DNA of 64,000 nucleotides, taken from Marinicella meishanensis. Lineage in GTDB: Bacteria; Pseudomonadota; Gammaproteobacteria; Xanthomonadales; Marinicellaceae. Under the pieces are notes generated by a model. It ran no database searches and was not told the DNA's origin. It saw only the letters and a list, made by a program, of their open reading frames with translations. Positions 7,899-46,915 of the stretch are shown here, one piece after another (within the stretch, counting starts at the first letter, position 1; each line of letters starts with the position of its first letter). The DNA lies in contig NZ_JAIOUV010000001.1 in assembly GCF_019931145.1 (NCBI RefSeq), forward strand, positions 62,001 to 126,000, written 5' to 3'. The position numbers and the translations under genes are program-made.

Positions 7899-9509
7899 AT
7901 GATCAACGTATTTTTGATGATTTGGACTGGGGTGTTTGGGTTACAGCACAGTCAGTCAGCTGAGAATGAGGCGTCTGTCTTTGGTGCCGAAATATTGCTC
8001 AGTTATGTGCTTGATTTGGATTCACCTGGCACACCATCGGCCACAGCACCAGGAGATTTCTTTGGGTTTTCATCGGCCACTGGAGATTTCAATGGAGATG
8101 GTATAGACGACTTGGCAGTGGGTATTCCAGGATGGGACTTTAACGTGGGGGTAGATGACACCGGCATGGTGATGGTTGTGTATGGAACATTCAATGGCAT
8201 TCCCAGTCAATCGGTGGAATTGACCCAAAGTTTGCTGCTTGATTCGGATGGTCTGGAACCGGGAGACTTGTTTGGTGGCACATTGGCCGTTGGTGATTTT
8301 GATGGCGATGGCTATGATGATTTGGTGGTGGGAACAGAAAATGAGGACGTCACCACTGACTTCAATGACCCCAACAACACGACTTTTGTGAATGCCGGGG
8401 CAATCAATATATTTTACGGCAGCAGCAGCGGCATTGAAACAGATTCTGATTACATTCACATCGACATCGATGACCCGTTCAGCGGTGACTTGTTACAAGA
8501 CGAAGCCCGCTTTGGACATGCCTTGACAGTGGGTAATTTCAATAATGATGACTGGGACGATTTGGTGGTCAGTGTGCATCGACAAGATGTGGTGTTTGAT
8601 GACATCAACAATCCTGTGATGGATGCCGGCATGGTGGTTATTTACAATGGTCATCCATTAGGAATCCGCAACACCGACAGAGACATCCTCAGTCAAGCCA
8701 ATGGCGCACTTTCTGGAGTTCCTGAAGTGCAAGACTATTTTGGCATCAGTTTGGTCGCTGGTAATTTTAACAACGACGATTATGATGATTTGGTCATCGG
8801 CGTCCCTTACGAAGATTACAACGGTGTCATTGATGCAGGAATCGTACAAGTTCTGTATGGCGCATCCAATGGTTTGGTATTCAACAATGAAATTTGGTCT
8901 CAAGATGATTTATTCGGAGTGGTTTTAGAAGTCAACGACCTGTTTGGCTTTTCCATGACCACGGGTAACATCAATGGCGATGGGTTTGATGATTTGATCG
9001 TCAGCGCGGCTTATGAAGACATTGAGAGTTTGGTTGATGCCGGCGTGGTCCACTCCATCCTGGGTTCCAGTGGTGGATTACAAGTCGCCAGCAATCAAAC
9101 CGTGTCACAGAACGATGGCACTTTGTTTGGAGTGGCTGAAACCGGTGATGTGTTTGGCTTGAGTTTGCACGCCGCTGATTTGAACTACGATGGTTTTGAT
9201 GAGGTCATCATTGGCACCCCGTTTGAGGACACCGCCATGAATGCCGGAGGCATTGTGCATGTGATTTTTGGTACCGCTGGCGGCATGGACATCAATGACA
9301 CCCAACATTTCCTGTCTGATGAATTGGACGCCAACTTCGGCTTTTCTTTGACCAGTGGCAATTATGGACAAGGCTCGACTTTGACCATGGGTAAACCCGG
9401 CAATGAATCCAATGACATGGATCCATTGGCTGGCTCCATATTTAATTTGGTCTACAAAAACCCTGACGTCATATTTAAAGATGGATTTGACCAGCCACCA
9501 AAGTTTTGA
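7899..9509 (+). CDS. Secreted FG-GAP (integrin alpha-like) repeat protein with C-terminal IFxDGF tail
   Basis: The product is 536 residues and begins with a short hydrophobic leader ending near QHSQSAEN. About seven blade repeats follow. Each carries a calcium-loop type motif (TGDFNGDGIDDLAVG, VGDFDGDGYDDLVVG, VGNFNNDDWDDLVVS, AGNFNNDDYDDLVIG, TGNINGDGFDDLIVS, AADLNYDGFDEVIIG) and a 'Y/FGS..G' strand. This is the FG-GAP beta-propeller, usually extracellular and calcium-binding. The C-terminus reads PDVIFKDGFDQPPKF, the shared tail extended by six residues. It converges on the PD40 gene with 16 bp between stops. The ligand is unknown. GGAG lies about eight bases before the ATG. Confidence 0.88.
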   Translation: MINVFLMIWTGVFGLQHSQSAENEASVFGAEILLSYVLDLDSPGTPSATAPGDFFGFSSATGDFNGDGIDDLAVGIPGWDFNVGVDDTGMVMVVYGTFNGIPSQSVELTQSLLLDSDGLEPGDLFGGTLAVGDFDGDGYDDLVVGTENEDVTTDFNDPNNTTFVNAGAINIFYGSSSGIETDSDYIHIDIDDPFSGDLLQDEARFGHALTVGNFNNDDWDDLVVSVHRQDVVFDDINNPVMDAGMVVIYNGHPLGIRNTDRDILSQANGALSGVPEVQDYFGISLVAGNFNNDDYDDLVIGVPYEDYNGVIDAGIVQVLYGASNGLVFNNEIWSQDDLFGVVLEVNDLFGFSMTTGNINGDGFDDLIVSAAYEDIESLVDAGVVHSILGSSGGLQVASNQTVSQNDGTLFGVAETGDVFGLSLHAADLNYDGFDEVIIGTPFEDTAMNAGGIVHVIFGTAGGMDINDTQHFLSDELDANFGFSLTSGNYGQGSTLTMGKPGNESNDMDPLAGSIFNLVYKNPDVIFKDGFDQPPKF

Positions 9510-15426: not shown

Positions 15427-17787
15427 TCAGCTGATCGCGGCCAACACCCGGTTGCGTTCAAAGTTGCTGCCGATGCTGTTCGCGGCGGCTTTGATGCGGG
15501 CTTTGATGGCGTCATTCATGGCCGGCTGGCGGCTGATGCTGAGCAACAAGTTGGCCAATTCAAAATCCGAACCGATGTGTTCGGCCGCGGCTTCGATCAT
15601 GCGGGCCAAATGCGCTTCTGGCACGTTAAACTTGAGCAAATCGGCATACACTTTTTTCATCTCGAAATCAGAGCCTATGTGACTGGCCAGATCCAGATAG
15701 GCGGTGAACAAAGCCTCATCGGCTTGTTCGATGTGTTGATTGGCAGCCAACATGACTTTGGCCAATTCGAAATCCGAGCCGATGGCGGTGGCCAAGGCAA
15801 ACAGGTTTTGTACATTCACCCCTTGATCGCCGCGTTGATCCAGATAAGCGATCAACACCTTGGCCATTTCAAAGTCCGATCCAATGCTTTCAGCGGCGGT
15901 GAAATAGGCTTGGTTGATGGCGGTGCTGGGTGGTAATTGCGGCAGCACGTTGAGCATGGTTTTGGCCATTTCGAAGTCCGAACCAATGCTGCCAGTAGCG
16001 GCAAAAAAGTCCAACCACTGACCTTCTGATTCGATCTCTTGGGTGGCCACCATGGCCGACAACACATGTGCCAACTCAAAGTCCGAACCGATGTCGGCCG
16101 CCAGGGTCATGGCCTGTGACAAATCGCGATCACTCAATACAGACAAGCTGAACAAATGCTTGAGGTAGGCTTTGCGCACAAAATCACTGTGGATCAAAGC
16201 CACTTCTTCCAACACACCTTGATCTCCGTGGTGGGATTGAATGCGTTCGACCCGGGCTTCCGCCTGCAAGCCGGTTTCCCGATAAACCATGGGTATGACG
16301 CTGGCAAACCAGCGCCTGGCAGCGGCATCAAAGGCTTGCTCATCACCCTCGTACCAATAAGTGTAGGCGGCATTTTCGGCATTGGTCCCGGGCGCACTTT
16401 CAATCAAAATGCGTTGTTTGATGCCCCCTTCGCTGTGGGTCAGATCAAAGCGGCTGTTGCTGGGGAAGGCCAGAATTTGACTTTCGTCGTCATTGAATTG
16501 AATGTCGCCTTTGAGCTTGGCTTTGACTTTCAGTTGGCGGTCATCGCGGGAAGAACTGATCGATATTTCAGTCTCACCACCATCGGTGCTGATGTGGTGG
16601 TAGGATGAGCCACTGGCATGGTGGATGTTGGTCAGGACCGAATGGGTTTGGGCCACCACGCCAGGGGCGGTCACCACGATCAGGGCCAAAATGCCCATCA
16701 GACCCATGGTCCACAGGCGGCTGGTTCGTTTGTTTTGGGGCTGCATGATGTTTTCCACACGTTGCAGCAGTTGGCTTTTCTTTGATGTCATAGCGGGTAC
16801 CATTAGGGGTTGAGGTTGTTGATTGAGCTGTCTGGGTTGTTGGGCTTTGGCCACATCAACCAAAGTCACTGCCAGGGCCTTGGGATTGTTGGTCCAGGTG
16901 GTGGCCAGGGCATCGGCTTGTTGTTCGGTGGCTTGGTGAATGTGTTGGGTCAACAGGCGGTTCAGTGGTTGGAAGAACAACACCATCTGCCACCATTGGT
17001 TGATGGCCAGCCACAGCCCATCACGGCGTTTGATGTGGGCCAATTCATGGGCCAGGGCGGCTTCAATTTGTTCGGCTCGACACTGTTGCAAAAAGGCCGT
17101 TGGGCACACCACTTCGCGGTGCAAGGCAATCGGTGAAGTCAACACTTCCGATTGGCTCAATCGGGTGTTGGCCGGCAAGCCACTGTGTACCAACAAGCGA
17201 TGGAAAGCGGTGAGGGTGTCCGGGTTGGTTACGGCCTGTCTGGATTGCATCAGCCAACACCATTGGCGCTGACTGTGTCGGTGTCGATAAACCAAACCGA
17301 TCAATCCGGCCAGCCAAATCAATGACCACCACATGGCTGGGTTGATTGGGTCTGGCTGGCCATTTCTTTGGCCAAGATCTTGCCCAATCCCTTGCCCCAC
17401 ATGCGGCTTGATGTCTGCGCCCTCTGGGTGGCTGGGTGCGGGGGTGTGCTCTGTCGGCACGGTGACCACTGGGTCAGTCTTGGCTGAACTGCGGTTTGGT
17501 GGTTTGACTGTTGGTTGCTTGCTGACCAAAGGTTGGTTGGATGGCTGCCATTGTGCAGGGCTCCAGGTCATGGCCCCCTGGGGAATCCAGCCTTGGGTCT
17601 GTACCCAGGCCGTGCACAAGCCCAGCAACAACACCGACTTCATGACCCATTCACCCAAACGATCAAAGGCCAACAAGCCCAGTCGGATGGCCACCAACAC
17701 CAGGCCAATCAGCACGGTGGAGTGAATGAAATAGTTGACCGCAAACAGCATCAGCTGTTCGGCCAAAGTTTGGATGGTCTCAATCAC
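15427..17787 (-). CDS. BlaR1-like M56 metallopeptidase with seven IGSDFE repeats
   Basis: The product is 786 residues. The start is GTG at 17787, overlapping the BlaI stop by 8 bp. N-terminal membrane helices occur at about 20-42, 47-60 and 151-168. The M56 zinc site is HELAH at 247-251, within AALAHELAHIKRRDG. A further membrane segment follows (LWTMGLMGILALIVVTAPGVVA). In BlaR1 proteins this protease cleaves or activates cleavage of the paired repressor on signal. Instead of a penicillin-binding sensor domain, residues about 566-786 carry seven copies of IGS[DN]FE with a period of 34-35 residues, probably a helical solenoid in the periplasm. Related M56 proteins have SSDYEK-type repeats. 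The signal sensed is unknown and need not be a beta-lactam. Confidence 0.9.
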   Translation of the reverse strand: MIETIQTLAEQLMLFAVNYFIHSTVLIGLVLVAIRLGLLAFDRLGEWVMKSVLLLGLCTAWVQTQGWIPQGAMTWSPAQWQPSNQPLVSKQPTVKPPNRSSAKTDPVVTVPTEHTPAPSHPEGADIKPHVGQGIGQDLGQRNGQPDPINPAMWWSLIWLAGLIGLVYRHRHSQRQWCWLMQSRQAVTNPDTLTAFHRLLVHSGLPANTRLSQSEVLTSPIALHREVVCPTAFLQQCRAEQIEAALAHELAHIKRRDGLWLAINQWWQMVLFFQPLNRLLTQHIHQATEQQADALATTWTNNPKALAVTLVDVAKAQQPRQLNQQPQPLMVPAMTSKKSQLLQRVENIMQPQNKRTSRLWTMGLMGILALIVVTAPGVVAQTHSVLTNIHHASGSSYHHISTDGGETEISISSSRDDRQLKVKAKLKGDIQFNDDESQILAFPSNSRFDLTHSEGGIKQRILIESAPGTNAENAAYTYWYEGDEQAFDAAARRWFASVIPMVYRETGLQAEARVERIQSHHGDQGVLEEVALIHSDFVRKAYLKHLFSLSVLSDRDLSQAMTLAADIGSDFELAHVLSAMVATQEIESEGQWLDFFAATGSIGSDFEMAKTMLNVLPQLPPSTAINQAYFTAAESIGSDFEMAKVLIAYLDQRGDQGVNVQNLFALATAIGSDFELAKVMLAANQHIEQADEALFTAYLDLASHIGSDFEMKKVYADLLKFNVPEAHLARMIEAAAEHIGSDFELANLLLSISRQPAMNDAIKARIKAAANSIGSNFERNRVLAAIS

Positions 17788-26523: not shown

Positions 26524-26949
26524 ATGGACCCACAACAAACCGTTTTTTATCGCATCGAAAAGGCCATCAAATCCTACCGCCAGTTTGCCCAGCAACAAAT
26601 TGCCGCCGTGCAATCCGGCATCACGGTGGATCAACTGTTGATCTTGGGCTTGCTGGATGCCGAGCCTGATTTGGCGCAAAAAGATTTGGCCAAAATGTTG
26701 TTCAAAGACCACGCCTCAATCACCCGCATGATTGAATTGTTGGTCAAACGCGGTCACTTGCTGCGCTCGGTCCACCCGGAGGACCGCAGGAAATTCAAGT
26801 TGGCCATCTCAACCCAAGGCCAACAAACACTGGCACAACTCAAACCCACCATTTTACGAAACCGGGCCCATGCCTTGCAGGGCATAGCGCCTGCTGAACT
26901 GCAACAACTGACCCACATATTGAACAAAATCATCAACAACTGTGACTGA
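26524..26949 (+). CDS. MarR-family transcriptional regulator
   Basis: The product is 141 residues from the ATG at 26524. The winged HTH is typical: ITVDQLLILGLLDAEPDLAQKDLAKMLFKDHASITRMIELLVKRGHLLRSVHPEDRRKFKLAISTQGQQTL, with the 'DRR' wing. It ends 10 bp before an S41 peptidase gene, so the two form an operon, and a palindrome overlaps the promoter, indicating autoregulation. The ligand is unknown. No cysteines suitable for redox sensing are present in the HTH. Confidence 0.9.
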   Translation: MDPQQTVFYRIEKAIKSYRQFAQQQIAAVQSGITVDQLLILGLLDAEPDLAQKDLAKMLFKDHASITRMIELLVKRGHLLRSVHPEDRRKFKLAISTQGQQTLAQLKPTILRNRAHALQGIAPAELQQLTHILNKIINNCD

Positions 26950-26959
26950 AGGAAATCCC

Positions 26960-28287
26960 ATGAAAACAAGCAAAACCCTGATCTGCCTGCTCACCGGTTT
27001 ACTGGTGGCTGGACTGGCAACCGCCCAAGAACCACCCGCGCCACTGACCCAAGCCGAACACGAAGCGGTGGTTGAGGCCATCAGCCGCCAACTGCAGGAC
27101 CATTACATTTTCCCCAAGTTGGCCGATAAAATGGCCAAATCCATCCGCAAAAACCTGAAAAAAGGCCAATACCAGGACATCACCGATGTGCAACTGTTCG
27201 CCCAAAGATTAACCGCTGACCTGGTTGCGGTGAGTGACGACAAACACATTCGGGTGATCTTTGATCCGGCCGCCATTGCCAGACAACGTCAGGCAGTGAC
27301 CCCTGCAGAAGAACAGCAACTGTATGCTGAGCTGGTGGCCCGCAACCGCATGAACAACTTTGGTTTTCACCAGGTCAAAGTGATGGAGGGCAATGTTGGC
27401 TACCTGGATCTGCGCTCTTTTCAAGGCACCGACTACGCCGGTGACACCGCGGTGGCGGCCATGAATTTTTTGGGCAACACCGATGCCCTGATCATTGACC
27501 TCAGACAAAATGGCGGTGGCAGCCCACAAATGATTCAGCTGATCTCTAGTTACCTGTTTGGGCCCGAACCGGTGCATTTGAACACCTTTTACCGCCGCGC
27601 CACCGAGCGTTATGACCAAACCTGGACCTTGCCCATGTAGACGGACAGCGACAACCAGACCGGCCGGTGTATGTGTTGACCAGCAACCGCACCTTTTCCG
27701 CTGCTGAGGAATTCAGTTACAACCTGAAAAACTTGGAACGGGCGACTTTGGTGGGTGAAACCACCGGTGGTGGCGCCCACCCAGGCGGTCCTTTGATCGC
27801 CACCGATCGCTACCAAGTGTGGGTGCCCACAGGCCGTGCCATCAACCCCATCACCAACACCAACTGGGAAGGCACCGGGGTGTCACCCCATGTGGCAGTG
27901 CCCCAAGCCGAGGCGCTGGACCGGGCCTACCTGATGGCCTTGGAAAAACTGATGGCTGAGAACCAGGATCCCACAGCCCAAGCCGCTTATCAGTGGTTGT
28001 TTGAAGGGTTGCAGGCCGAACACTCCCCCGTAACCCTGGCGGCAGCGGCCTTGCGACAGTATGTTGGCAGCTATGGTCCGCGGCAGGTGACCCTGGAACA
28101 AGACCAACTGTATTACCAACGCGGAGCCGGTGAAAAGCACGCCATGATACCCATGGGAAACCACCGCTTCATGTTCGCAACCATTCCCTATTTTCGGATT
28201 GAGTTTGAGGTCAACGAAGGCGTTGCTGGCGCCATTGTCGGCCATTACAACAACGGCCGCACCGACAAGAACGAACGCGGTGATTGA
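26960..28287 (+). pseudogene. S41 peptidase gene broken by a one-base frameshift
   Basis: The start ATG at 26960 has GAAGGAAA upstream and a signal peptide follows (MKTSKTLICLLTGLLVAGLATA). The first frame encodes an IRBP/S41-type N-terminal domain and VGYLDLRSFQGTDYAGDTAV...DALIIDLRQNGGGSP, then stops at 27638-27640 (TAG). The next frame continues the family sequence in register: HVDGQRQPDRPVYVLTSNRTFSAAEEF (nucleophile Ser), then TLVGETTGGGAHPGG and a normal C-terminus to 28287. Adding one base to the CCC at 27632-27634 would restore a single reading frame of about 440 residues. It is either a recent inactivation or an assembly error in a short C-run; all catalytic parts are otherwise intact. 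It is in an operon with the preceding MarR gene. Confidence 0.85.
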
Positions 28288-28325: not shown

Positions 28326-29651
28326 TCAGTCAAAACCATCGATAAAGATGAGGTCGTGATTGGGGTTGAACTCATCGGCACCAACATCGGCGTTGCTGCC
28401 GCCCGGTCTGGGTTCGCCGTCATGGTCCAGTTGGGCATCCAGCGGTGCCATCACCTGATCCATCACCGCCGTGGCGGCAGGCAGCAAATGTAAATCGCCT
28501 TGGGCCGGATTGAGGAACCAGCTGGCGATGGCGCTGGTCACATTACCAGATTGGCTGAAGGTGGCCCCATTTCTGGAGCCGATGTCGGCATCGGTCAAAT
28601 TGTTTTGCAGGTCACTGCCGGTGGTGTCAAAGCGCATTTCAATCGACAGCCTTTGATTCAGATTGGACACCACGCTGTTGTGCAACACCTGGGTTTGGGG
28701 CGAGTCCCAAACGATGATCAAACCATCCGAATTGGCCCGGCGAGCCGCACTGTAGGTACCCGGCGTCATGTGGACCATGTTGTTGCGGATGATGCCCCCG
28801 GTATGATCGGTGCCCGATGGCCGGTCCACCAGACCATAGGCGATGGCCCGATCCACATCCACAAAGCGGTTGTTCTCGGTGATGGTGTTGCGGGCCCCGT
28901 TCCACATCAACACCGCTGGATTCCACAGGTGATCGCTGCCATCCGGGGTGTGAAAGTTCTGAAACAGGTTGTGACTGATCAACCAGCCATCGCCGCCGTG
29001 AATATCTACCCCATTGGTGTAGCCGGTGCCACCACCGTGGTCGGTGGCCGGCGGGCCGGCGGTGTAGGCCATGATGCTGTGCGACACCACCCCGTCATCC
29101 ACCCCGATGCCAAAGCCACCAGAGCTGCCTTTGATGAATTGTTCACCGGCATCGAGCAAGCGCACGTTGTGAATCACCGGTGCGTCGGCCCCCGGATCGA
29201 ATTGAATGGGGTGGTGATAAACATCCCGAATGGTCAGGTTCAACACCGTTAAGTTGGTGGCATTGGTCCAAATGCCGTGAGGCACTTGACCAAAATTGGG
29301 GTTTTCCATGCCAGGGCCAATCAGGTTAACGGCATCACAGCGGTCACTGTTGCCGCGAATGGTGATGTCATCCTGTTGGATCCACAGGGTTTGGGTCAAG
29401 ACATAGTCCCCCGGTTCCAGCAGCAGGGTGCTGTCGGCTTGCAGGTTGTTCAAGGCTTGGTTCAACTCACCGACATTGGCAATGTTCACCACTTGACCCG
29501 TGGGTGCCGGCCACACCGGTGCGGTCAAACAAGCCGGGGTGGCACCATGAGCTGGTGCGGCCAGCAAGAATCCAACCAAGCGGCACAAACCCACCCAGCC
29601 TAAGCCGTGTTGTGCCCTCACATGGTGCAAAGGAGTCCAGTTATTCACCAT
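28326..29651 (-). CDS. Secreted right-handed beta-helix protein with C-terminal IFIDGFD tail
   Basis: The product is about 441 residues; two adjacent ATGs lie at 29654 and 29651, with GGGGA before them. The N-terminal leader runs to about residue 38 (VGLCRLVGFLLAAPAHG-ATP). The body is a parallel beta-helix of the pectate-lyase-like kind (ITIRGNSDRCDAVNLIG, LTVLNLTIRDVYHHPIQF, IHNVRLLDAGEQFIKG, NTITENNRFVDVDRAIAYGLVDR, GIIRNNMVHM), which in many relatives binds or cleaves polysaccharide; I cannot identify catalytic residues. It ends GADEFNPNHDLIFIDGFD, combining the choice-of-anchor ending with the shared tail. It converges on the S41 pseudogene. Confidence 0.84.
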   Translation of the reverse strand: MVNNWTPLHHVRAQHGLGWVGLCRLVGFLLAAPAHGATPACLTAPVWPAPTGQVVNIANVGELNQALNNLQADSTLLLEPGDYVLTQTLWIQQDDITIRGNSDRCDAVNLIGPGMENPNFGQVPHGIWTNATNLTVLNLTIRDVYHHPIQFDPGADAPVIHNVRLLDAGEQFIKGSSGGFGIGVDDGVVSHSIMAYTAGPPATDHGGGTGYTNGVDIHGGDGWLISHNLFQNFHTPDGSDHLWNPAVLMWNGARNTITENNRFVDVDRAIAYGLVDRPSGTDHTGGIIRNNMVHMTPGTYSAARRANSDGLIIVWDSPQTQVLHNSVVSNLNQRLSIEMRFDTTGSDLQNNLTDADIGSRNGATFSQSGNVTSAIASWFLNPAQGDLHLLPAATAVMDQVMAPLDAQLDHDGEPRPGGSNADVGADEFNPNHDLIFIDGFD

Positions 29652-36598: not shown

Positions 36599-37906
36599 TC
36601 ACTCACAAAAGACATTGGGCACACTGCGCTCCAAGTCGATTGTGCCACTTAAGCCACCATCAATTTGGTAGCTGAGTTGCGCTGTCGAACAGTCCAAAAA
36701 CCGCATTTCTGCGGTACCCACCGGCAAGGTCTCGGTCTCACTCAAGGCATTGAACAGGCCTCCTGTGGTGTTGAAAATGGTCGCTTCAATGGTGGGCCCG
36801 GATCCCAACTCGCCTTGGATGGTTAACCAGCGCAGCGCCCCTTGAACCTCATCGTCATAAGTGAACCAGGCAGCGAAAAACAAACCAATGTCGGTTTTGA
36901 TGTCGACCAACAGGCCCTGTCCTGAAATGTCTAAATTATGCCAAGCACCGGTCAATCCATCATTGGGCATGATACCGGTGCCATTGTTTGGGTCATCCAG
37001 TTCGATCACCCGCAACACATTCGGGGCGATGTCATCCTGGGTGCCAACCACCGCAGAATCATTGACATAGAGCTTGCTGCCATCGGGACTGACGTCTATG
37101 CCATTGGGCAAGGAAAAGCGGGCGGTCAGGGCATCCCCGTCATCGCGCCCTGCTTGCCCCGAACCGGCAATCACGGTCAATTCACCCGTTAAAGACAAAC
37201 CAAACACCTGATGGGTGGCATTGCTGACCAAATACAATTGATCATTGCCATAAGCGATGTGGCCATTGCCACCGGCTGGTTTGTTGGGGGCGCCTGGTGT
37301 GCGGGCAAAGAAAGTGGCCTCACCGGCGGGGGTGATTTTCACCACGATGCCGTTGTTGAAATTCACGGCGTATAAATTATCGGCCTCATCAATGGCCAAG
37401 CCATTCGGACAGGACAGTAAAGGCGAATCAGAAAACAAAGACACCCCACCTGCCAGGTTCACCTTGGATACGGTGTTGTTGCCACAGTTGTTGACGAAGA
37501 GGTTGCCAGCGGAGTCAAAAGCCAAGCCAATGGGCCCGGCAATGCCGCCGTTGCGGGCATAAGGCGTCTTGTTGCCAGCCGCATCAATGCGGTCAACCCC
37601 CACAGCGCCTCCATTGGATTGATACAAAGCGCCATCGGGACCGATGACATTACCCGTGGCGCTGAAAAACCCAGTGGCCCACACAGAGACCTCGCTTGCC
37701 GGTGTCACCCGATAGACGCGACTGCCATTCGCTTGGCTTAATTTAACCCCATAATCGGCCACAAAAATGTCACCATTGGGGGCCACCGCCACATCCCCGC
37801 TGGCTTGGAATGGGGTGGGTGTTAAGGTCGTCACTTGTCCGGCTTCTGCCCCGAAAATGAACAACCACAGGAACAGCCAAATGAATTGATGATGAATTGC
37901 TTGCAT
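36599..37906 (-). CDS. Secreted NHL/SMP-30-like propeller protein with C-terminal Trp/Cys module
   Basis: The product is 435 residues from the ATG at 37906, with AAGGAGG upstream, and a signal peptide (MQAIHHQFIWLFLWLFIFGAEA). Residues about 25-310 are propeller repeats of the 'DVAVAPNGDIFVAD', 'GLAFDSAGNLFVNN', 'GLAIDEADNLYAVN' type. The last 120 residues form the shared module, starting GLTGAWHNLDISGQGLLVDI, then AAWFTYDDE, RFLDCSTAQLSY and NVFCE at the end. The gene starts 13 bp after the stop of the FG-GAP gene and so is co-transcribed with it. Many NHL proteins bind other proteins or lactones; no specific activity is indicated. Confidence 0.85.
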   Translation of the reverse strand: MQAIHHQFIWLFLWLFIFGAEAGQVTTLTPTPFQASGDVAVAPNGDIFVADYGVKLSQANGSRVYRVTPASEVSVWATGFFSATGNVIGPDGALYQSNGGAVGVDRIDAAGNKTPYARNGGIAGPIGLAFDSAGNLFVNNCGNNTVSKVNLAGGVSLFSDSPLLSCPNGLAIDEADNLYAVNFNNGIVVKITPAGEATFFARTPGAPNKPAGGNGHIAYGNDQLYLVSNATHQVFGLSLTGELTVIAGSGQAGRDDGDALTARFSLPNGIDVSPDGSKLYVNDSAVVGTQDDIAPNVLRVIELDDPNNGTGIMPNDGLTGAWHNLDISGQGLLVDIKTDIGLFFAAWFTYDDEVQGALRWLTIQGELGSGPTIEATIFNTTGGLFNALSETETLPVGTAEMRFLDCSTAQLSYQIDGGLSGTIDLERSVPNVFCE

Positions 37907-37919
37907 GGGGGCGCCTCCT

Positions 37920-39638
37920 TCAGTGCTTGAGTGAATGCTTGTGGGTGATCGATGGTGGCTCATCCACGGTGCTTTGCAGGTTTTGACAAAACCGATCGGG
38001 CGTTAAGCGAAACAAATTCAGCTGGCCCGATGCGACCAACCCATCCGGGATCGCCAAATCATACGTCAGCGATCCATGTTGACAGTCGCTGAAAGTCAAT
38101 TCTGCCGTGCCCACTTCAGTTAAGCCGGTGGGGCTGGGGTCCACAAACAAGCCGTCGCTGGACAAGGCCAAAGTCAATGGCGCTTGGGCACCTTCATAAG
38201 AACCATAAGCGGTTAACCACAGGTGTTCCGGGGCGCCAATGGTCTTGACACCGGCTGCGTGGTCAGTGGTCTGTGATGCGGTGCCATCGGCATACGTGAA
38301 CCAAGCCCCAAACACAAATGACAATTGATCATTGATGTCAAACATCAAGCCTTGCGAATCCGCCCCTTCAATGCCCCAAGCGCCGGACAGGCCGGGGTTG
38401 ATGGCAAATGTTTGGAGGTCGGGTTTGGCCACCGTACCGGCCACCACATAAACCACATTGCCATTGGCGGCAGACAACAAATGGTCGTCTTTGCCGTCTT
38501 GGTTGACGTCCCCCAGGCCAACGGCATCAAAGCCCAATTGGCTGTTGGCCAAGTTGTGTTGCATGACCTGCAGTACACTGCCATCAGCACCGGAAAACAC
38601 CGTGACTTTGCCGGCTTGATTGGGGCCCGCCGTATACGAGCCCACGATCAAGTCAGCATGTCCATCACCATTGACATCGCCGGCGCGCCTACCCGGACCC
38701 ACCCCCTCCCCGGCCTGACCGGAAAATCGATGGATGACCTGTTGGTTGGCACCGGAATAGATGTAAACGCGACCCCTGCCACCGGCATGGTTGTAATCGC
38801 CCACATAGATGTCATGGGTACCATCGTGGTCGACATCTCCCGCATCAGCCACAAAGAATTGACCGTAGGCGCTGGCCCCGGGATCTGGCAACAAGGTAAA
38901 CAACAGTTGGCCGTCGATACCCGAATAGACATAAGCTTGTCCCCCACGATTGGTGCCCGCATCGTAGGCCCCAACAATGAACTCATGGATGCCGTCTTGA
39001 TTCAAATCTCCCAACAAGCCAACCCCGCCGCCAAAGCGATCGCGGTTGGCGGCAGCGTCCAGGGTTCTGATCAATTGACCATCCTGACCTGAATACACAT
39101 AAACCCGACCGGCTTCGATGTTATTGGGGGCATAAGACTCGGCCCCGACCAACACATCGGCAAACCCATCGCCGTTCACATCACCCGCTGAGGCCACAGC
39201 AGAACCCAATCGATCACCGGCTTGCTCACCATCAAAGCGCCACAATTGGGCGCCGGTGGCACCCGAATAGACCACGGCCACCCCCCTGGATCCATTCAGT
39301 AGAGTCCCACCCGTGATGATGTCATGCACCCCATCGTTGTCCACATCTCCGGCATCGGCCATGGCGTATCCCAAACTCGAACCGGGCAGGGTGAAGCGAT
39401 GGATCAACTGACCATCGGCGCCAGAGAACACATCGGTGGTGTGGGTGCCGGTGGCTCCAATGATGTAGTCCGTAATCCCATCACCGTTGATGTCTGTCAG
39501 CTCGGATACAGCCCAGCCATAAGAGCCAGCACCCGTGTGGCTTTGCAGCACTTGGGTGTCATCTGAAAATTGCGCATGCACCGATCCACAGCACAGGATC
39601 ATGGTGGTGGTGATGGCCCAAGAAAGGATTCTATTCAT
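37920..39638 (-). CDS. Secreted FG-GAP repeat protein with C-terminal Trp/Cys module
   Basis: The product is about 572 residues from the ATG at 39638, with AGGAA upstream, and a signal peptide (MNRILSWAITTTMILCCGSVHA). About seven FG-GAP blades have calcium-loop motifs (LTDINGDGITDYIIGA, AGDVDNDGVHDIITGG, AGDVNGDGFADVLVGA, LGDLNQDGIHEFIVGA, AGDVDHDGTHDIYVGD, AGDVNGDGHADLIVGS, LGDVNQDGKDDHLLSA). Unlike the FG-GAP protein at 7.9 kb, this one ends in the Trp/Cys module (GLSGAWGIEGADSQGLMFDI, GAWFTYADG, LTFSDCQHGSLTY, RFCQ) plus an 18-residue tail. It is the first gene of a two-gene operon with the NHL protein. Confidence 0.86.
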   Translation of the reverse strand: MNRILSWAITTTMILCCGSVHAQFSDDTQVLQSHTGAGSYGWAVSELTDINGDGITDYIIGATGTHTTDVFSGADGQLIHRFTLPGSSLGYAMADAGDVDNDGVHDIITGGTLLNGSRGVAVVYSGATGAQLWRFDGEQAGDRLGSAVASAGDVNGDGFADVLVGAESYAPNNIEAGRVYVYSGQDGQLIRTLDAAANRDRFGGGVGLLGDLNQDGIHEFIVGAYDAGTNRGGQAYVYSGIDGQLLFTLLPDPGASAYGQFFVADAGDVDHDGTHDIYVGDYNHAGGRGRVYIYSGANQQVIHRFSGQAGEGVGPGRRAGDVNGDGHADLIVGSYTAGPNQAGKVTVFSGADGSVLQVMQHNLANSQLGFDAVGLGDVNQDGKDDHLLSAANGNVVYVVAGTVAKPDLQTFAINPGLSGAWGIEGADSQGLMFDINDQLSFVFGAWFTYADGTASQTTDHAAGVKTIGAPEHLWLTAYGSYEGAQAPLTLALSSDGLFVDPSPTGLTEVGTAELTFSDCQHGSLTYDLAIPDGLVASGQLNLFRLTPDRFCQNLQSTVDEPPSITHKHSLKH

Positions 39639-39999
39639 AGCAAATTCCTGATCATTCATGGTTTGTCAGCACCATCCAAATTAATCGAAACGAAACCCTT
39701 AGTACATGTCAATCATTGCTTTTTTATTGTCGTTATTGATCGAGGAACAATGGGTTGTGATGAATGGTCTGGAGCATCAGGTGCCTGTGCCTCACCACCG
39801 AATTGGGCGGAGCAGAAATTAGGTCTCAATGGCGGTGATGTGATTATTTTTTCTTACGCAACATGCCTGGTTGACTGCATGCGCGGGTCAGGTGTTGCAA
39901 GCAGGTGGTCTGCAACACCTGAAAAGTCAATAGCACCGGGTACATGGCCGGTCAGGGTTTGCGGGTTAAGGATCGGCGGTTGTGCTTATGCCACCTTAT
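39639..39999. other. 361-bp gap with one inverted repeat
   Basis: The gap lies upstream of the FG-GAP gene and downstream of the BNR gene, both on the minus strand. No open frame with a family signature was seen. An 11-bp perfect inverted repeat, CAGGTGTTGCA (39889-39899) with TGCAACACCTG (39911-39921), could end the BNR transcript, though no U-run follows. The promoter for the FG-GAP operon should lie in the AT-richer part near 39.67-39.86 kb; no clear boxes were fixed. Confidence 0.5.
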
Positions 40000-42900
40000 T
40001 CAATCACACGCGTAACCGCTGAGTTGGGTCAAACGGGTGACGGCCAATTCACCATCTGGGAATCCGGGCAGGGTGCTGGTCCAGCTGACCACCGCATTGT
40101 TGTCATCGACTTTGGTGAAGCTCAGGGTGCCCCAGTCGGTCAGCACCACATCGTCTTGGTTGAAGTCGTTGGGGAATGAGGTGCCGGAGCCGGTGATCGC
40201 CGGCATGGTGGCCACGTCACCATCGATGGGGCCGTTGGCCAGCAGCCAGTATTGTTGGCCATTGACATAAGTGTACCAAGTCATCAACATGTTCAGGCCA
40301 GAACCGGCTTCGATCACTTCGACCAAAAAGCCATGGCCACTTTGTTCGGTGCTGAACCACGAGCCGCTGTGACAGGAACGCAGACCTGTGGCACTGCTGT
40401 CATCCGGAGCCAACTGCGTCAACCGTTCCATCAGCATGCTGCCGTTGTTGTAAGTCGACAAAGTGGAAGACCAAATCACTTGGGCACTGCGATCCGATTC
40501 GAACACCAGGGTCACCGTACCCCACGGGGTTTGTACCACGTCATCAGGGTCGAAATTGGCCAAGGGAAAACCGGTGCCCTCGGTGATGTTCAAATCCAGG
40601 GTGGCTTGGTTACCGGAGATTTCGCCCACCCCGATCAACCACATCGGTTCACCGTCGATGTAGGCATACCAAGCCGCCAACACCGCCGGGGTGCCGTTCA
40701 AGTCAATCACCTGAACCTGCAAACCATGACCGGATTGGTCGCGGTTGAACCAAATGCCACTGACCTCATCATTGATGGCAAAATCAATCGCCCCATCCAA
40801 GTCGGCCAATGGCACCCGCCACACCCCACGGCCGTAGGTGAAGGCAAACAACAGTGGATCGCCGCCTTGGGCCGGTTCGCGGATCACCAAGTCTTCGACA
40901 ATCACTTGACTGAAGCCGGTGTTTTCCACCACCCAGTTTTCGCCGCCATCGACCGTCACAAACACACCCAAGTCGGTGCCGATGAACAGGCGTTGGGAAT
41001 CATTCGGATCGATCACGATTTTGTGGACCGGCACATCGGGCAATTGACCCGCTCCGCTGCCATCAATGGCCCGCCAGGTGGCACCGCCATTGGTGCTGCG
41101 CCACACGTGTTGACCACCGAAAGTGGAATAGGTGGCATAGGCCACATCGGGATTACCCGGCTCAAAGGCCAGGGACGACACCCAGCCGGTTCGTGGGCGG
41201 GAGAAAGACACGTTGAACAAACCGCTGTTGTCCAAGGCATTGTTGACACGGGCAATGATTTGGTTGTTGCCATACAGCACGTGGTTGGAATCACCGGGCG
41301 CCACCGCCAGCGCGGAAATCAAATCATTGAAGGTGCTGCCGGCACTGGGGCTGGCTTGATGCCAGGACACCCCTTGATCGTCACTGCGCCACAAGCGATC
41401 GCCTCCCAAGAACAAACGATTGGGGTCATTTTCATCGATTTCAAAGGGGGTCACAAAAATCTTATTGGGCCACACCCCGAGGTTGTGCCACGGCGTCACC
41501 GTGGGCGAATTCTGGGCAAAGGAAATCAGACTGGTGAACGATTGGCCACCATCGGTGGTGCGTTGGATGTTGGCATTCTGCGATGACACATAGAAATTAT
41601 TGTCATCGCTGGGGTTGATGGCCAAATCGGTGCCATCCCCGCCATTGATCCACTGCCAATTATTCACCCCAAACACGTCACTGCCGAATTGGGTGCCGTT
41701 GTCCTGGGCGCCAGCCAGGTAGGAACGGCCATCGGAAAACACCCCACCGGCATAAAACTGGGTGGTGCCATAATCGTTGTTGATGCTGCGCCATTGCACC
41801 CCATCGGTGGCGGGCAAACACGGTGCCGTGTCACCATATTTGACCGCAGGTGAATCATCTTCGGTCAAGAAAATGCCGCCGTCGTTGATGGCATACAAGG
41901 TGCGGTTGTTCTGGCCGTCATACTCCGGATGAAAGTAGAAGCCATGTTGGTCGGCATGCACATAGGCGCCGTCATACGCGGGGTTGTTGTAAAACTCAGC
42001 ATCCCAGTCTGAGGCCATGCCAAAATTGCGGCCACCGTCATCCGAGCGGTAAATTTCCATGCCACCGACCCACACCACATTGGGATCAGTCGGACTGACC
42101 GCGATGGCTTGGTTGTACCAACCGGCACTGTAATACCAAGGGGCTTGATTGCCACATGAGGCGGCCAATGCCCCATCGGCATAGGAGAACAATTGGGTGT
42201 TGAGGATGTTGCTGTCGGTGTTGCGCAACCGCGCCTGCCAACTCAAACCACCGTCGTCCGAATAAAAAATCGCGTGCAAGCCGTTGTGCAGATCGGGCTG
42301 GCCATCAAAATTGAAATCAGGCCCACCATCGGTGTTGGCCGATGCCGCATAGATGATGTTTTGATTGGCTTGGTGGATCGACATTTCGGTGCGGCCCATG
42401 CCCGGTTCGGTGTGGGTCATTTGCCAATCGTCGCCGCTTTGCGCCTGGGTATTGACATAAATGCGGGCATCACATGGACCGTCACAGGCGTCGGGCAACA
42501 AGCCTGGCAGGTAATAGCGGTCATCGGTCGAACGTGAGGCGCATGAAACCAACAACCAATCGTCGGCCAAATCATCACGCAGGCTCAAATCATTACACCC
42601 TTCAAACAAAGTTTGGCCCTGGTCAGAGACCGGGTTCAAGGTTTGGGTGAAGGTTCGGCCGCCATCGGTTGAACGCCAAACCCCAGAATTGGTGGCGGCA
42701 TACACCGTCTCACTGTGGTTGGGGCTGATCAAAACATCACTGACGTACATGAACTGTTCATTAACCGTGGCTGACAACTGAAACCAGGTCTCACCGCCGT
42801 CGGTGGATTTGAAGATCCCGGCACCGGTCATGCTGGAATATGGGCGCAGGGTCTTGCGATACAATTCTCCGGTGCCGGCATACAGCACCCGGGGATCATG

Positions 42901-43410
42901 GCGGCTGATGGCCAAGGCACCGACATTGATGTTGGCCATGTTGTCGGCCAAGGCCTGCCAGTTGTCCCCACCGTTGGTTGATTTCCACACCCCACCTGAA
43001 ACCCCGGCGGCATACATCACCGCTGGATCTTCTGGGTGAAACAACAGCGCCCGCGTGCGTCCGCCGACGTTGCCAGGGCCCAACCATTCCCAGGCTGTGG
43101 CAGCTGCTTGTTTGGTCGACTTCAAACTCTTTTCTTGGGCATTCAAAGCCCGACCCAAACGGGTTGAAAAGACTGGTTTTTGCAAGGTGGCATTGATGGC
43201 TTCCCGGTAAGGATCCATCGGCAGTTGATCCATGCCGGCCGGCAATCGTTTTTGCAAAAAATGTTGCTGCCGTTCATAAGCCGCCGCCGGGTATTGGGCG
43301 TCCGGTCGTGGCAGTTCAATGCCAGCTCCGCTCTGCTTGACTTGTTGTTGGGTGGCTGACCAGGTCAACACCAGCCCCATCAGCAAACTGATCACAATGA
43401 ATTTTTTCAT
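40000..43410 (-). CDS. Large secreted BNR/sortilin-like propeller protein with two C-terminal Trp/Cys modules
   Basis: The product is 1136 residues with signal peptide MKKFIVISLLMGLVLTWSA. Residues about 110-860 contain many BNR/Asp-box repeats (S-x-D-G-G-x-T/S-W: SGGVWKSTNGGDNW, AGIFKSTDGGETW, SGVWRSTDGGRTF, YSDDGGLSW, IYRSDDGGRNF, RTTDGGQSF, WRSDDQGVSW, WRSTNGGATW, VTVDGGENW), the fold of sialidases and sortilin-like propellers; no sialidase Arg triad is evident. The last 270 residues hold two copies of the Trp/Gly module (SGIWFNRDQSGHGLQVQVI... and GSWFSTEQSGHGFLVEVI...), the second ending YACD. It is the only protein here with a doubled module. Function unknown, probably extracellular. 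Confidence 0.87.
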   Translation of the reverse strand: MKKFIVISLLMGLVLTWSATQQQVKQSGAGIELPRPDAQYPAAAYERQQHFLQKRLPAGMDQLPMDPYREAINATLQKPVFSTRLGRALNAQEKSLKSTKQAAATAWEWLGPGNVGGRTRALLFHPEDPAVMYAAGVSGGVWKSTNGGDNWQALADNMANINVGALAISRHDPRVLYAGTGELYRKTLRPYSSMTGAGIFKSTDGGETWFQLSATVNEQFMYVSDVLISPNHSETVYAATNSGVWRSTDGGRTFTQTLNPVSDQGQTLFEGCNDLSLRDDLADDWLLVSCASRSTDDRYYLPGLLPDACDGPCDARIYVNTQAQSGDDWQMTHTEPGMGRTEMSIHQANQNIIYAASANTDGGPDFNFDGQPDLHNGLHAIFYSDDGGLSWQARLRNTDSNILNTQLFSYADGALAASCGNQAPWYYSAGWYNQAIAVSPTDPNVVWVGGMEIYRSDDGGRNFGMASDWDAEFYNNPAYDGAYVHADQHGFYFHPEYDGQNNRTLYAINDGGIFLTEDDSPAVKYGDTAPCLPATDGVQWRSINNDYGTTQFYAGGVFSDGRSYLAGAQDNGTQFGSDVFGVNNWQWINGGDGTDLAINPSDDNNFYVSSQNANIQRTTDGGQSFTSLISFAQNSPTVTPWHNLGVWPNKIFVTPFEIDENDPNRLFLGGDRLWRSDDQGVSWHQASPSAGSTFNDLISALAVAPGDSNHVLYGNNQIIARVNNALDNSGLFNVSFSRPRTGWVSSLAFEPGNPDVAYATYSTFGGQHVWRSTNGGATWRAIDGSGAGQLPDVPVHKIVIDPNDSQRLFIGTDLGVFVTVDGGENWVVENTGFSQVIVEDLVIREPAQGGDPLLFAFTYGRGVWRVPLADLDGAIDFAINDEVSGIWFNRDQSGHGLQVQVIDLNGTPAVLAAWYAYIDGEPMWLIGVGEISGNQATLDLNITEGTGFPLANFDPDDVVQTPWGTVTLVFESDRSAQVIWSSTLSTYNNGSMLMERLTQLAPDDSSATGLRSCHSGSWFSTEQSGHGFLVEVIEAGSGLNMLMTWYTYVNGQQYWLLANGPIDGDVATMPAITGSGTSFPNDFNQDDVVLTDWGTLSFTKVDDNNAVVSWTSTLPGFPDGELAVTRLTQLSGYACD

Positions 43411-43618
43411 GTCGGTCTCCTGCAGTTTTTCACCTCCAAAATCATCATTGGATGGTGGTTACAACCATTTTATGCCATCAGCCGGATGAATTCATCTGCG
43501 TGATGGGTTAGTTGGGCTCAAGCCCAATCCAGGCCCAGATTAAATGCTGGGGCTGCTTGCTTTGGGGCCGTGCCCCTGGGTTCAAGATAAATGAATGGCC
43601 ATGGGCTGAACATGTCAT

Positions 43619-44521
43619 TCATTGCTTTTTTAAGTCAGAGGGTTTGATGCCAGACAACCTTTTGAACTGTTTGCTGAAGGTGTAGACATCAGGATATCCC
43701 AAGCATTCTGCGACATCGGTGAGGTTGGTTCCATGATGTTGAATCAAGTGCTTGGCCCGATTGTGTCGCAACCAAGTGTGCAAACGAATTGGTGTGATGC
43801 CATACAATTGCTTGAATCGTCTGAGCAAAACAAATTTAGAGGTGCCAACCTGCCTGGCCACTTGCGCCAAGTTCAAAGGCGCATGGGCATGGGCATAAAT
43901 GAATTCTTTGGCCTCATCCAATTGGTCTCTGATGCGCTTTGAAGTGCGCTTCATTTGACAAGCCAATTTGTGCCAAGCTTCCTCATGGGTCATGAAAGCC
44001 GTCATGAACACCAAGCCCAACTCCAAATAAAACTCTTCACCCAGCACCGCTTGCGGACGGCGCAACAATTGGTGCCAAATCCGGGTCAGGTGGGCCGAGT
44101 GCAATGGCAGGCAGTGGGCTCTGCTGAAAGGTTTCAGGGATTGCAGTTCTTGATCAAACAGCGCCATCCCCAATGCTTCCATCACTTGATCATCAATGAA
44201 CACAGAAAAACAATCGGCTGAGCATTTAACGGCCACATCCCGGCGGTTATTCACCAACAACGTGTCGCCAGCCTGGATCCACTTTTTGTGGCCATTGATA
44301 GTGTATTCTTCATGACCTTCAATGACGTATTTCAAGGAAAAAATGGATTGATAAGCCACCGAGGACTGCATGATTCGACCCTGCTCATCCATTTGATTTG
44401 ACACAAACCGCAGCACCTTGTTGCCCAGCTTTTCAGGAAAATACATCTCGTCCATGACCAGTTCAAGCTGATCAGCGTGGTGGATGATCGGGGCATCGTG
44501 TGGGGACTGTTGGTTGTTCAT
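43619..44521 (-). CDS. AraC-family transcriptional regulator
   Basis: The product is about 300 residues from the ATG at 44521. The N-terminal 190 residues are a ligand-binding or oligomerisation domain (EEYTINGHKKWIQAGDTLLVNN, a cupin-like strand pair). The C-terminal 100 residues are the AraC double HTH (FIYAHAHAPLNLAQVARQVGTSKFVLLRRFKQLYGITPIRLHTWLRHNRAKHLI...LTDVAECLGYPDVYTFSKQFKRLSGIKPS). It is soluble, unlike the membrane AraC at 1.6 kb. A palindrome TGATATATCA lies just behind its -10 box, the same as at the MarR promoter near 26.5 kb. It sits between two genes for module-bearing secreted proteins, which it may control. Confidence 0.9.
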   Translation of the reverse strand: MNNQQSPHDAPIIHHADQLELVMDEMYFPEKLGNKVLRFVSNQMDEQGRIMQSSVAYQSIFSLKYVIEGHEEYTINGHKKWIQAGDTLLVNNRRDVAVKCSADCFSVFIDDQVMEALGMALFDQELQSLKPFSRAHCLPLHSAHLTRIWHQLLRRPQAVLGEEFYLELGLVFMTAFMTHEEAWHKLACQMKRTSKRIRDQLDEAKEFIYAHAHAPLNLAQVARQVGTSKFVLLRRFKQLYGITPIRLHTWLRHNRAKHLIQHHGTNLTDVAECLGYPDVYTFSKQFKRLSGIKPSDLKKQ

Positions 44522-44534
44522 TGACACATTTAGT

Positions 44535-44574
44535 TGATATATCACATAATTACACAGATTGCCCCACCTTGCAA
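44535..44574 (-). promoter_or_regulatory. Promoter and palindromic operator of the AraC gene
   Basis: On the minus strand TTGCAA (44569-44574) and TAATTA (44547-44552) are 16 bp apart, followed two bases later by the palindrome TGATATATCA (44535-44544). The flanking sequence also resembles the MarR operator at 26491 (TAATTAT...TGATATATCAA). Confidence 0.55.
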
Positions 44575-44688
44575 TTCATTTCAGCCCATTTTCAGTGGTT
44601 CAACGCCGCTTGTTGGGGCCCATTATCCCCCCTTCAGGGGATCAGAGGCACCAGCTGTGACGCCCTGTGTTCCAGCCAAAACCAGCCT

Positions 44689-46407
44689 TTATTCGCTGTC
44701 TTGCTCGCAACTCAGACCCGCGTTTCTGGCCAATGGCACCATCGACAAGCTGCCGGCTTCATAGCCCAGACCAGGGTTCGGGGTCCAACGGAATTTAGCG
44801 GCATCACAAGCACTCACTTCAAATTCAAAAGTGCCCCACTCGGTGAACTCCACATCACTGGAATTGAACAAAGGTGGGAACAGGGCACCGCGAGTCATAT
44901 TGACCGACAAGGTGGCCAAATTGTTTGCATACGACCCAGCCCCCAGCAACCAGATTTGATTGCCCTGGGTGTCGTAGGTGTACCAAAAAATCACCATTTG
45001 GTTGTTGGGCAGCACATCAACGCTGAGGCCGTGGCCGCCTTGATCGGGATTGATCCACAAACCCGAGTGGTGCGCTTCGATGTCCACGATTTCAGCCAAA
45101 TTGGGGCGCAAAATGAAGACCCCTCGATTGACATCGGAAACCATGACCACGCCGTTGTCAAAAAACGGATAGACGTTCCAGGCACCGCCAAAGTTGGACG
45201 TGTTATCGGGATCCGGATAGGTGTCGAAATAAGCCACTTCGGTCATTTCTGCGGCCGCCAAATCACCCAGCTTGAGAATCCGCAAGCCGCGGATGTAATT
45301 GGCTTGGTAAGTGTGGCCGTCAACGATGTATTGGTTGTGATCAACCGCCACGCCATCGGCTTCGTGGTATCCCGTCAGCACCGGGTTGTCCAAATCCGTC
45401 AGGTCCATCACATAGGTGCGGGTGTGGTCTGAAAGCCCCGCATCGCGGCGCACCAATTCATCCAACTCGTCGTCGATCAAAAAATATTTTTGGTCGGCCG
45501 TGAGCCACCCCTGGTGGGTGTATTGTTGGCCGTTGTAGCCTGTGCGGCTGAGCATGGTGGGGTTGTTCTTATTGGTCACATCGACGATGGTGACGGTGTC
45601 TTCATTGCTGGCAAAACAGATTTCTCTGCCCAAATGATCGCTGTCTGGTCCGGCATAGATCAAACACTGGGCGTCGTGGGTGTAACCATCGGCATCATAA
45701 CAGGCCGTGTATTGCGGCGACACCGGATTTTGGATGTTGACCATGTGCAAACCGCCCAAACAATTGTTTTGTCCACCGACCAGATAAGCAAATCCAGTGG
45801 CTTCGTTGATCACGATGTTGTGGGCCGAGACAAAACCACCCCCTTCATACAAATGATCCGGGGTGAAGGTTTGCACACCTTGCACATTCAACAAACGGGT
45901 CAAATTAAACACCTGCATGCCGTGTTCGATGTCATCGGCCACGATGAACGCATGGTCTTGGTAGGTTTTGATGTCTCGCCAGGCGCTGGCTTGACCATTG
46001 GTGCTGGGTAAGTTGCCCAAATAAACGGGATTGGCCGGATCGGTGATCTCGACAAAAGAGGTGCCATTGGAGCGACCAACCAAAGCAAAATACCGACCAC
46101 TGGTCTCGTGTTTCCAGCCCCAACTGTCTGAACCCTGACCACCGCCAATTTGATTCAAGTCCAAATGACCCAACAAATCCACGTTGTGACAGGCAAACAC
46201 ATCGGCTTGGCCATTTTCACATGCAGCCGGTCCATTGAATTGGTAGCCTTTGTAAGGTTGGTTGTGGGCTTTGTGCATCATTTTCACAAAGTCCCAATCG
46301 GGATACATTTTGTTCAGTTTGGCGGATTGTTGCGGGGTGTGGCAAGCCCAGGCAGTGACATGCACAAAAGCGGCCATCAGCAAGATCAAATACAATTTAT
46401 TCTTCAT
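44689..46407 (-). CDS. Choice-of-anchor B (LVIVD-repeat) secreted protein with C-terminal Trp/Cys module
   Basis: The product is 572 residues from the ATG at 46407, with signal peptide MKNKLYLILLMAAFVHVTAWA. The domain has LVIVD-type strands (YFALVGRSNGTSFVEITDPANPVYLGNL, AFIVADDIEHGMQVFNLTRL, FASNEDTVTIVDVTNKNNPTMLSRTGY, RTYVMDLTDLDNPVLTGY, VVMVSDVNRGVFILRPN) as in the 'choice-of-anchor B' family, which forms a surface propeller. The end is the Trp/Gly/Cys module (SGLWINPDQGGHGLSVDVLPN, FWYTYDTQGNQIWLLGAG, EVSACDAAKFRW, LSCEQDSE). In other bacteria this family carries various C-terminal anchors, so the module may be its anchor here. Confidence 0.88.
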   Translation of the reverse strand: MKNKLYLILLMAAFVHVTAWACHTPQQSAKLNKMYPDWDFVKMMHKAHNQPYKGYQFNGPAACENGQADVFACHNVDLLGHLDLNQIGGGQGSDSWGWKHETSGRYFALVGRSNGTSFVEITDPANPVYLGNLPSTNGQASAWRDIKTYQDHAFIVADDIEHGMQVFNLTRLLNVQGVQTFTPDHLYEGGGFVSAHNIVINEATGFAYLVGGQNNCLGGLHMVNIQNPVSPQYTACYDADGYTHDAQCLIYAGPDSDHLGREICFASNEDTVTIVDVTNKNNPTMLSRTGYNGQQYTHQGWLTADQKYFLIDDELDELVRRDAGLSDHTRTYVMDLTDLDNPVLTGYHEADGVAVDHNQYIVDGHTYQANYIRGLRILKLGDLAAAEMTEVAYFDTYPDPDNTSNFGGAWNVYPFFDNGVVMVSDVNRGVFILRPNLAEIVDIEAHHSGLWINPDQGGHGLSVDVLPNNQMVIFWYTYDTQGNQIWLLGAGSYANNLATLSVNMTRGALFPPLFNSSDVEFTEWGTFEFEVSACDAAKFRWTPNPGLGYEAGSLSMVPLARNAGLSCEQDSE

Positions 46408-46915
46408 GGTGGTTTGGTTTATTCCTTTAATCCTTTCATTGTAGTGGATCAAAGCGCAGATAGGAAGCATCTATTAAGGGTTTCGTCGATGTGACCAATG
46501 GTGTTCATGGGACCCGGTCGCTTACGGACCACAGTGCCGACCCGCCACCACCGACTCTTTTGTGCCAAAAAAAACAAACCAATTCGCAAGCCTGTCACCG
46601 CGCCACTTGGGGTGTAAATTCAGTCACCAAGCGGGCGTTGCCGTTATCCACAGAGCCTGTGGATAACTTTGTTGATAAGCGGTCAAATCACTGCTTCGAA
46701 AACAGCAGTCTTTACATTTCATTCACTTTGGTTAAATTTTAACCAAAACATGAAAAATCATATATTTCAATCACTTAAAAGACTTTTCAAACGTTGAAAA
46801 TCAATGTTGCAAACTAAATTCTTGTTTTATGAAAGTCAGATGACCGAATGTGTATAAATCAAAAAAATCAAGATATTTTTTGGGTTTTTTTCAGGCCATT
46901 CTGCCTCGCGCCCTG
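46408..46915. other. AT-rich 508-bp gap with paired DnaA boxes and palindromes
   Basis: GTTATCCACAG (46643-46653) and its complement CTGTGGATAAC (46657-46667) form a perfect head-to-head pair of consensus DnaA boxes (TTATCCACA). A third site, TGTTGATAA (46670-46678), differs at one base. About 220 bp of AT-rich DNA follow, including the palindrome TTGGTTAAA-T-TTTAACCAA (46727-46745) and AT tracts up to 46890. This looks like an origin or DnaA-binding regulatory element. The neighbours (folE2 and a secreted protein gene) are not those of a usual gammaproteobacterial oriC, so a DnaA titration or reactivation site is equally likely. The promoter of the choice-of-anchor B gene should also lie in this gap. 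Confidence 0.55.

Follow-up and report, generated by a model that had tools for sequence, protein, structure and literature searches.

It has long been an open question how a type II secretion system (T2SS) picks out its cargo, and a 64,000-nucleotide stretch of the Marinicella meishanensis genome (contig NZ_JAIOUV010000001.1, positions 62,001 to 126,000; 'the window' below) bears on it. Four neighbouring proteins, with an NHL, an FG-GAP, a BNR and a choice-of-anchor B core, share a region of 110-140 residues, as an initial annotation of the sequence had described, and five others end in a short IFxDGFE-like tail. What is this module, and why do some exported proteins carry it where their sister proteins carry a tail? 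The module belongs to a domain family that is spread over many partner domains and absent from tail proteins, and within protein families the two labels are exchanged. A confident structure prediction places this so far undescribed domain among small beta-barrels of the avidin/streptavidin fold class. Its attachment or addressing role, its ligand and the secretion route of its carriers are what we infer; with roughly even confidence, we take it for an avidin-fold domain by which exported proteins in this bacterial order are attached or addressed, and which can be exchanged for other labels.

If module and tail are alternative labels, each homologous core should carry one or the other. Pooled over three families, 79 complete homologues comprise 36 with the module, 36 with the tail, three with an IPTL-type anchor, four with neither and none with module plus tail; the nominal chance of zero overlap is 8e-16, which is not a true p-value since the proteins are related. 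Choice-of-anchor B proteins, drawn from 81 genomes, gave 32 complete sequences, each with exactly one of the two labels (the tail in 26, the module in six), and the three in the genome of M. meishanensis itself divide likewise: the window copy has the module, and those at C11:115312 and C9:360355 end in LIFIDGLD and LIFATDFE. On a tree of the choice-of-anchor B core the module label changes three times, at least two of these changes being forced by starred branches. Among 13 Spondin_N proteins five have the module, seven the tail and one neither, excluding an own-genome member with the module that fell below the E-value cut (L013). The 34 complete DUF4397 proteins include 25 with the module and three each with the tail, an IPTL-type anchor or neither; one of the anchors passes the IPTL-CTERM cut-off (L193) and two merely resemble IPTL-CTERM (L178, L194). 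Module and tail, or module and IPTL-type anchor, sit at the same place on these homologous cores. From 40 choice-of-anchor B matches we removed a copy (L149, of L120), second partial frames (at L125 and L145), cut ends (L121, L122 and L123, of which L122 holds one module) and five fragment matches; from the DUF4397 set, a frame ending inside the module (L188), a copy (L196, of L178) and the cut rows L177, L179, L180, L181 and L195, with L257-L260 in their place. Homologues were scored for tails by visual inspection, with degenerate forms (such as LLYRNSFE, IYGDRFAP, RLFSDSLE) accepted; in one protein (L265) some 40 residues separate the tail from the C-terminus. Nor did any of the 37 own-genome frames with the module carry an IFxDxF-like tail in its last 20 residues (by regular expression), so the objection foreseen in the initial annotation, that both labels might often share one protein, is not borne out in these frames and homologues. 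Together, the swaps and the mutual exclusion favour the view that all three labels, the IPTL-type anchor included, have a common role where the export route ends.

The family reaches far beyond the window. Alignment of the five window copies has 12 invariant columns, in keeping with their supposed homology, and a profile hidden Markov model built from them recovered its own copies at E 5e-53 to 7e-43. In the genome (3,989,142 bases, 15 contigs, 98% complete) it found 44 further matches at E<=1, 49 in all and far beyond chance, and iteration raised the total to 50 copies in 37 reading frames. Within the window the five are the only matches at E<=1 (C7:98602-107081, window 36602-45081), therefore the tail proteins of the window are free of the module at that threshold, as had been claimed. 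A hydrophobic N-terminal stretch was picked up by a crude scan in 31 of the 37 frames, the other six including a cut 5' end and late starts. Partner domains range over peptidases (S8, M12, M14, M23, M28), serine beta-lactamase-type, metallo-beta-lactamase-fold and amidohydrolase proteins, cyclophilin, LRR, Spondin_N, DUF4397 and propellers, and for 11 of 30 scanned module proteins Pfam gives either nothing at E<=0.001 or a single match short of the curated cut-off. Within this genome the window FG-GAP module has its nearest relative, at 54% identity, on a metallo-beta-lactamase-fold protein, which suggests shuffling between unlike partners. That protein is part of a second cluster (L047, G000:C14:169000-178000), which also holds an NHL paralogue and an M23 peptidase, each carrying the module; the cluster looks like a duplication with domain shuffling.

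Position and copy number are less uniform than first described. In 28 of the 37 frames the module ends no more than 30 residues short of the C-terminus, as the initial annotation would have it, but in the other nine it lies near the N-terminus or internally, and we reject a strictly C-terminal tag on that account; at the loci that a DNA pattern picked out in other genomes it is C-terminal in 28 of the 63 frames with a closed 3' end. Two module matches occur in 13 of the 37 own-genome frames, one of these being partial. The cysteine pair first noted is likewise common without being general: C92 is present in 64 of 75 copies and C125 in 58 of 69, and the first cysteine is absent from both BNR copies. 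The aromatics W9, W33 and W44 are conserved, and often W82 and W99 as well. Tandem copies, placement at either protein end, conserved aromatics, many hydrolase partners and a barrel fold by which avidins and lipocalins bind small ligands would all suit a ligand- or carbohydrate-binding accessory domain, which would bring enzymes and propellers to their substrate, have no part in sorting, and alternate with the tail only because both are C-terminal additions. We consider this rather unlikely: the cyclophilin, DUF4397, Spondin_N and multihaem partners have no obvious substrate in common, no known carbohydrate-binding family gives a credible match, and exchange with an IPTL-type anchor and a tail on homologous cores is not expected of a substrate-binding addition.

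Structure prediction had been proposed at the outset; AlphaFold2, applied to the choice-of-anchor B copy (window 44692-45081), returns an eight-stranded antiparallel barrel, a feature of the Avidin family. In Foldseek the model's best match has an E of 0.015 and none falls under 0.001, a match of fold class. The module thus resembles avidins in its predicted barrel but not in sequence: a true avidin is rejected, since none of 49 copies matches Pfam Avidin at E<=0.1 and comparison gave an hhalign probability of 1.1% against streptavidin plus avidin. The same 49 copies, scanned singly, gave no Pfam or NCBIfam family, only isolated single-copy matches to unrelated ones (best E 0.022 and 0.0017, respectively), and 75 copies gave isolated PHROGs matches (best E 0.017). 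Among curated carbohydrate-binding families, Pfam offered one match in 49 copies, at chance level (E 0.062) and to a sialidase lectin insertion. We therefore reject membership in any known family of carbohydrate-binding, catalytic or phage proteins, and the match to a carbohydrate-binding or catalytic domain that the initial annotation had named as a refutation did not turn up. A solved relative by sequence is rejected too, the PDB matches being weak (CylK, a surface protein and MORN-type proteins; best E 0.014) and those to CylK resting, in the alignments listed, on short 'YDxxGNxxW' stretches. Literature searches found no paper on the module, though one may be in print.

Two kinds of known domain invite comparison. 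The avidin-like domain of fibropellin, reportedly treated in a 2005 paper by Yanai whose title names it, would be, like the modelled barrel, an avidin-fold domain on extracellular proteins, the one in an animal mosaic protein and the other in bacteria. By analogy with the assembly role proposed for that domain, an avidin-type barrel might oligomerise exported proteins outside the cell; we hold this very improbable, as tandem and single copies stand side by side and the fibropellin domain is an avidin by sequence, which the module is not. C-terminal sorting signals (IPTL-CTERM, PEP-CTERM, GlyGly-CTERM, MYXO-CTERM), for their part, occur like the module in many copies per genome on unrelated exported proteins, here 50 copies spread over 37 frames and a variety of partners, and on DUF4397 proteins the IPTL-type anchor takes the very place of the module. 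They differ from it in build, being a short motif, a transmembrane helix and a basic end, whereas the module is a folded beta domain of about 115 residues whose model shows no such helix and which no NCBIfam sorting model matches; they are also strictly C-terminal, and we know of no processing enzyme for the module.

Across genomes, the two labels follow different rules. At E<=1e-5 the module is found in 38 of 41 genomes (own included), with up to 60 copies in one; in surveys with a ceiling of about 11 scored candidates per genome, whose copy counts are therefore lower bounds and which may miss distant copies, it appears in at least 175 of 398 genomes of the order and in at least four of 398 from a phylum-wide draw, the own genome among the four. 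G017, a genome of the same genus as the window's, has 1501 bases that are 100% identical to Marinicella sediminis F2, which fits the genus Marinicella. When named genomes were scanned with a DNA pattern, each of the 67 loci obtained held the domain; they lie in Wenzhouxiangella, Marinicella, Tahibacter, Rudaea, Chiayiivirga, Pseudomarimonas, a Lysobacter isolate and metagenome-assembled genomes (MAGs) of Lysobacterales, with further loci in MAGs labelled otherwise. Those labelled Deltaproteobacteria (L053, L055, L056, L060, L065) encode proteins of about 260-290 residues that are little beyond two modules, and may represent transfer or misbinned contigs. The proteins of two loci, L097 and L105, bear a pair of modules towards the N-terminus; in L097 (a frame of about 1067 residues) a region rich in CxxCH motifs, as in multihaem cytochromes, comes after them.

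The tail was counted by a degenerate DNA pattern, which at one mismatch or fewer occurs 64 times in the own genome against none for the reversed control, at times doubled in tandem about 30 bases apart (G000:C15:171182-171232, G011:C33:167663-167713, G011:C3:9228-9281). A weak correlation over 41 genomes speaks against a simple coupling of module and tail: Spearman's coefficient is 0.37 on raw counts, falls to 0.27 when these are taken per Mb (p 0.09), and is 0.16 within the genus. What the tail does follow is a T2SS lineage. The GspD tree (59 sequences, 37 genomes) has two clades, which a profile of seven clade A members separates cleanly (A >=509 bits, B <=247). Control-subtracted tail numbers are 4 to 100 (median 36) in the 60 of 81 genomes with lineage A, seven of them by partial hits alone (G004, G007, G014, G024, G458, G561, G575), and 0-2 in three with a divergent A-like GspD. 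Of the 18 without lineage A among the matches listed, on which all these calls rest and from which fragments may be missing, 15 have 0-8 tails; the exceptions (G455 with 22, G015 with 49, G009 with 76) are assemblies of 180-530 contigs. The rank test for tail number against lineage A gives p 1.6e-8, uncorrected for relatedness. All 11 of the 81 genomes without a module match in the order survey have 0-3 tails, and seven genomes (G031, G435, G441, G446, G451, G456, G459) have the module, 0-8 tails and no lineage A among the matches listed. Lineage A, tried as a paired component of the module, does not follow it. Comparing the distributions, as had been suggested, thus yields weakly coupled counts but also a tail that tracks lineage A and a module that persists without it; the genomes with tails therefore look like a subset of those with the module, and the tail, unlike the module, seems tied to lineage A.

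Might the module then be the export label of a second, Xps-like T2SS, parallel to the tail as label of the Gsp-type one? The own genome holds both systems, lineage A in a gspCDEF-like operon (about C9:118600-124100) and lineage B in an Xps-like set (about C8:64000-72800). That tail numbers follow lineage A would fit, as would lineage B in the seven module genomes just named and, in near-finished G018, the lack of both the module and any GspD match among those listed. We nevertheless find it quite improbable, for lineage B occurs without the module in G036, G250, G321, G449, G454, G460, G132 and G339, the module is a whole domain free in position, and exchange with an IPTL-type anchor suggests retention over export.

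Our preferred reading of an attachment or address domain would run as follows. A signal peptide would take the protein across the inner membrane, and the barrel, mostly C-terminal and at times elsewhere or doubled, would hold it at an outside location, most probably through binding a surface or matrix component or through oligomerising; on homologous cores it would stand where sister proteins have a tail or an IPTL-type anchor, one label per gene. Because it is a whole barrel, variable in place and sometimes doubled, attachment of either kind appears more likely than recognition by a transporter. Somewhat short of even is the confidence we place in the fuller scheme of two parallel address codes, an IFxDGFE-like tail read by the Gsp-type T2SS and an avidin-fold barrel attaching independently to surface or matrix, with genes switching by swapping C-termini. 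The initial proposal of two parallel systems survives in that the labels were never found together on one protein, share a place on homologous cores and have different genomic correlates, but not as a plain C-terminal address signal, the barrel being also N-terminal or internal, doubled or alone. Several observations weigh against the preferred reading. The module label is clustered on the choice-of-anchor B tree (three changes against a shuffled mean of 5.7), therefore independent swap events are few, and a tree was made for this family only among the three; nine own-genome frames have the module away from the C-terminus; free-standing copies behind a signal-like start (L016, L056) fit a binding domain at least equally; and resemblance at the level of fold class says nothing on function. 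The tail, which varies in number with one T2SS lineage of the two that coexist and swaps with a folded domain, provides matched protein pairs for tests of cargo choice and surface retention. A large undescribed family, found in this bacterium and its relatives on dozens of exported proteins that are unrelated otherwise, would explain the accessory regions of many hypothetical exported proteins.

The features of the window are collected in Table 1, in which the two tandem copies of the BNR protein are seen again. Its five tail proteins were recognised by reading translations, and four of the five also fit the tail pattern at one mismatch or fewer.

Table 1. Module proteins, module copies (profile envelopes) and tails, in window coordinates.
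Feature	Position	Strand	Remark
NHL/SGL beta-propeller protein, C-terminal module	36599..37963	-	longest frame; later start likely
Module copy, NHL protein	36623..36955	-	residues 337-447
FG-GAP repeat protein, C-terminal module	37920..39659	-	
Module copy, FG-GAP protein	38004..38390	-	residues 424-552
BNR/Vps10-like propeller protein, two tandem C-terminal modules	40000..43410	-	
First module copy, BNR protein	40420..40764	-	residues 883-997
Second module copy, BNR protein	40030..40371	-	residues 1014-1127
Choice-of-anchor B (TIGR04312) protein, C-terminal module	44689..46470	-	start probably 46407
Module copy, choice-of-anchor B protein	44731..45069	-	
IFxDGFE-like tail	7076-7096	+	
IFxDGFE-like tail	9471-9491	+	
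IFxDGFE-like tail	9529-9549	-	
IFxDGFE-like tail	28329-28349	-	

Elsewhere in the window, a 786-residue frame (15427-17787, minus strand) repeats a motif around IGSDFE every 35 residues or so in its C-terminal half, and the part before the repeats resembles a membrane peptidase-like protein. Two consecutive frames at 26942-28287 (plus strand), with a stop between them, jointly resemble one S41-type peptidase; both likenesses were read from the translations.
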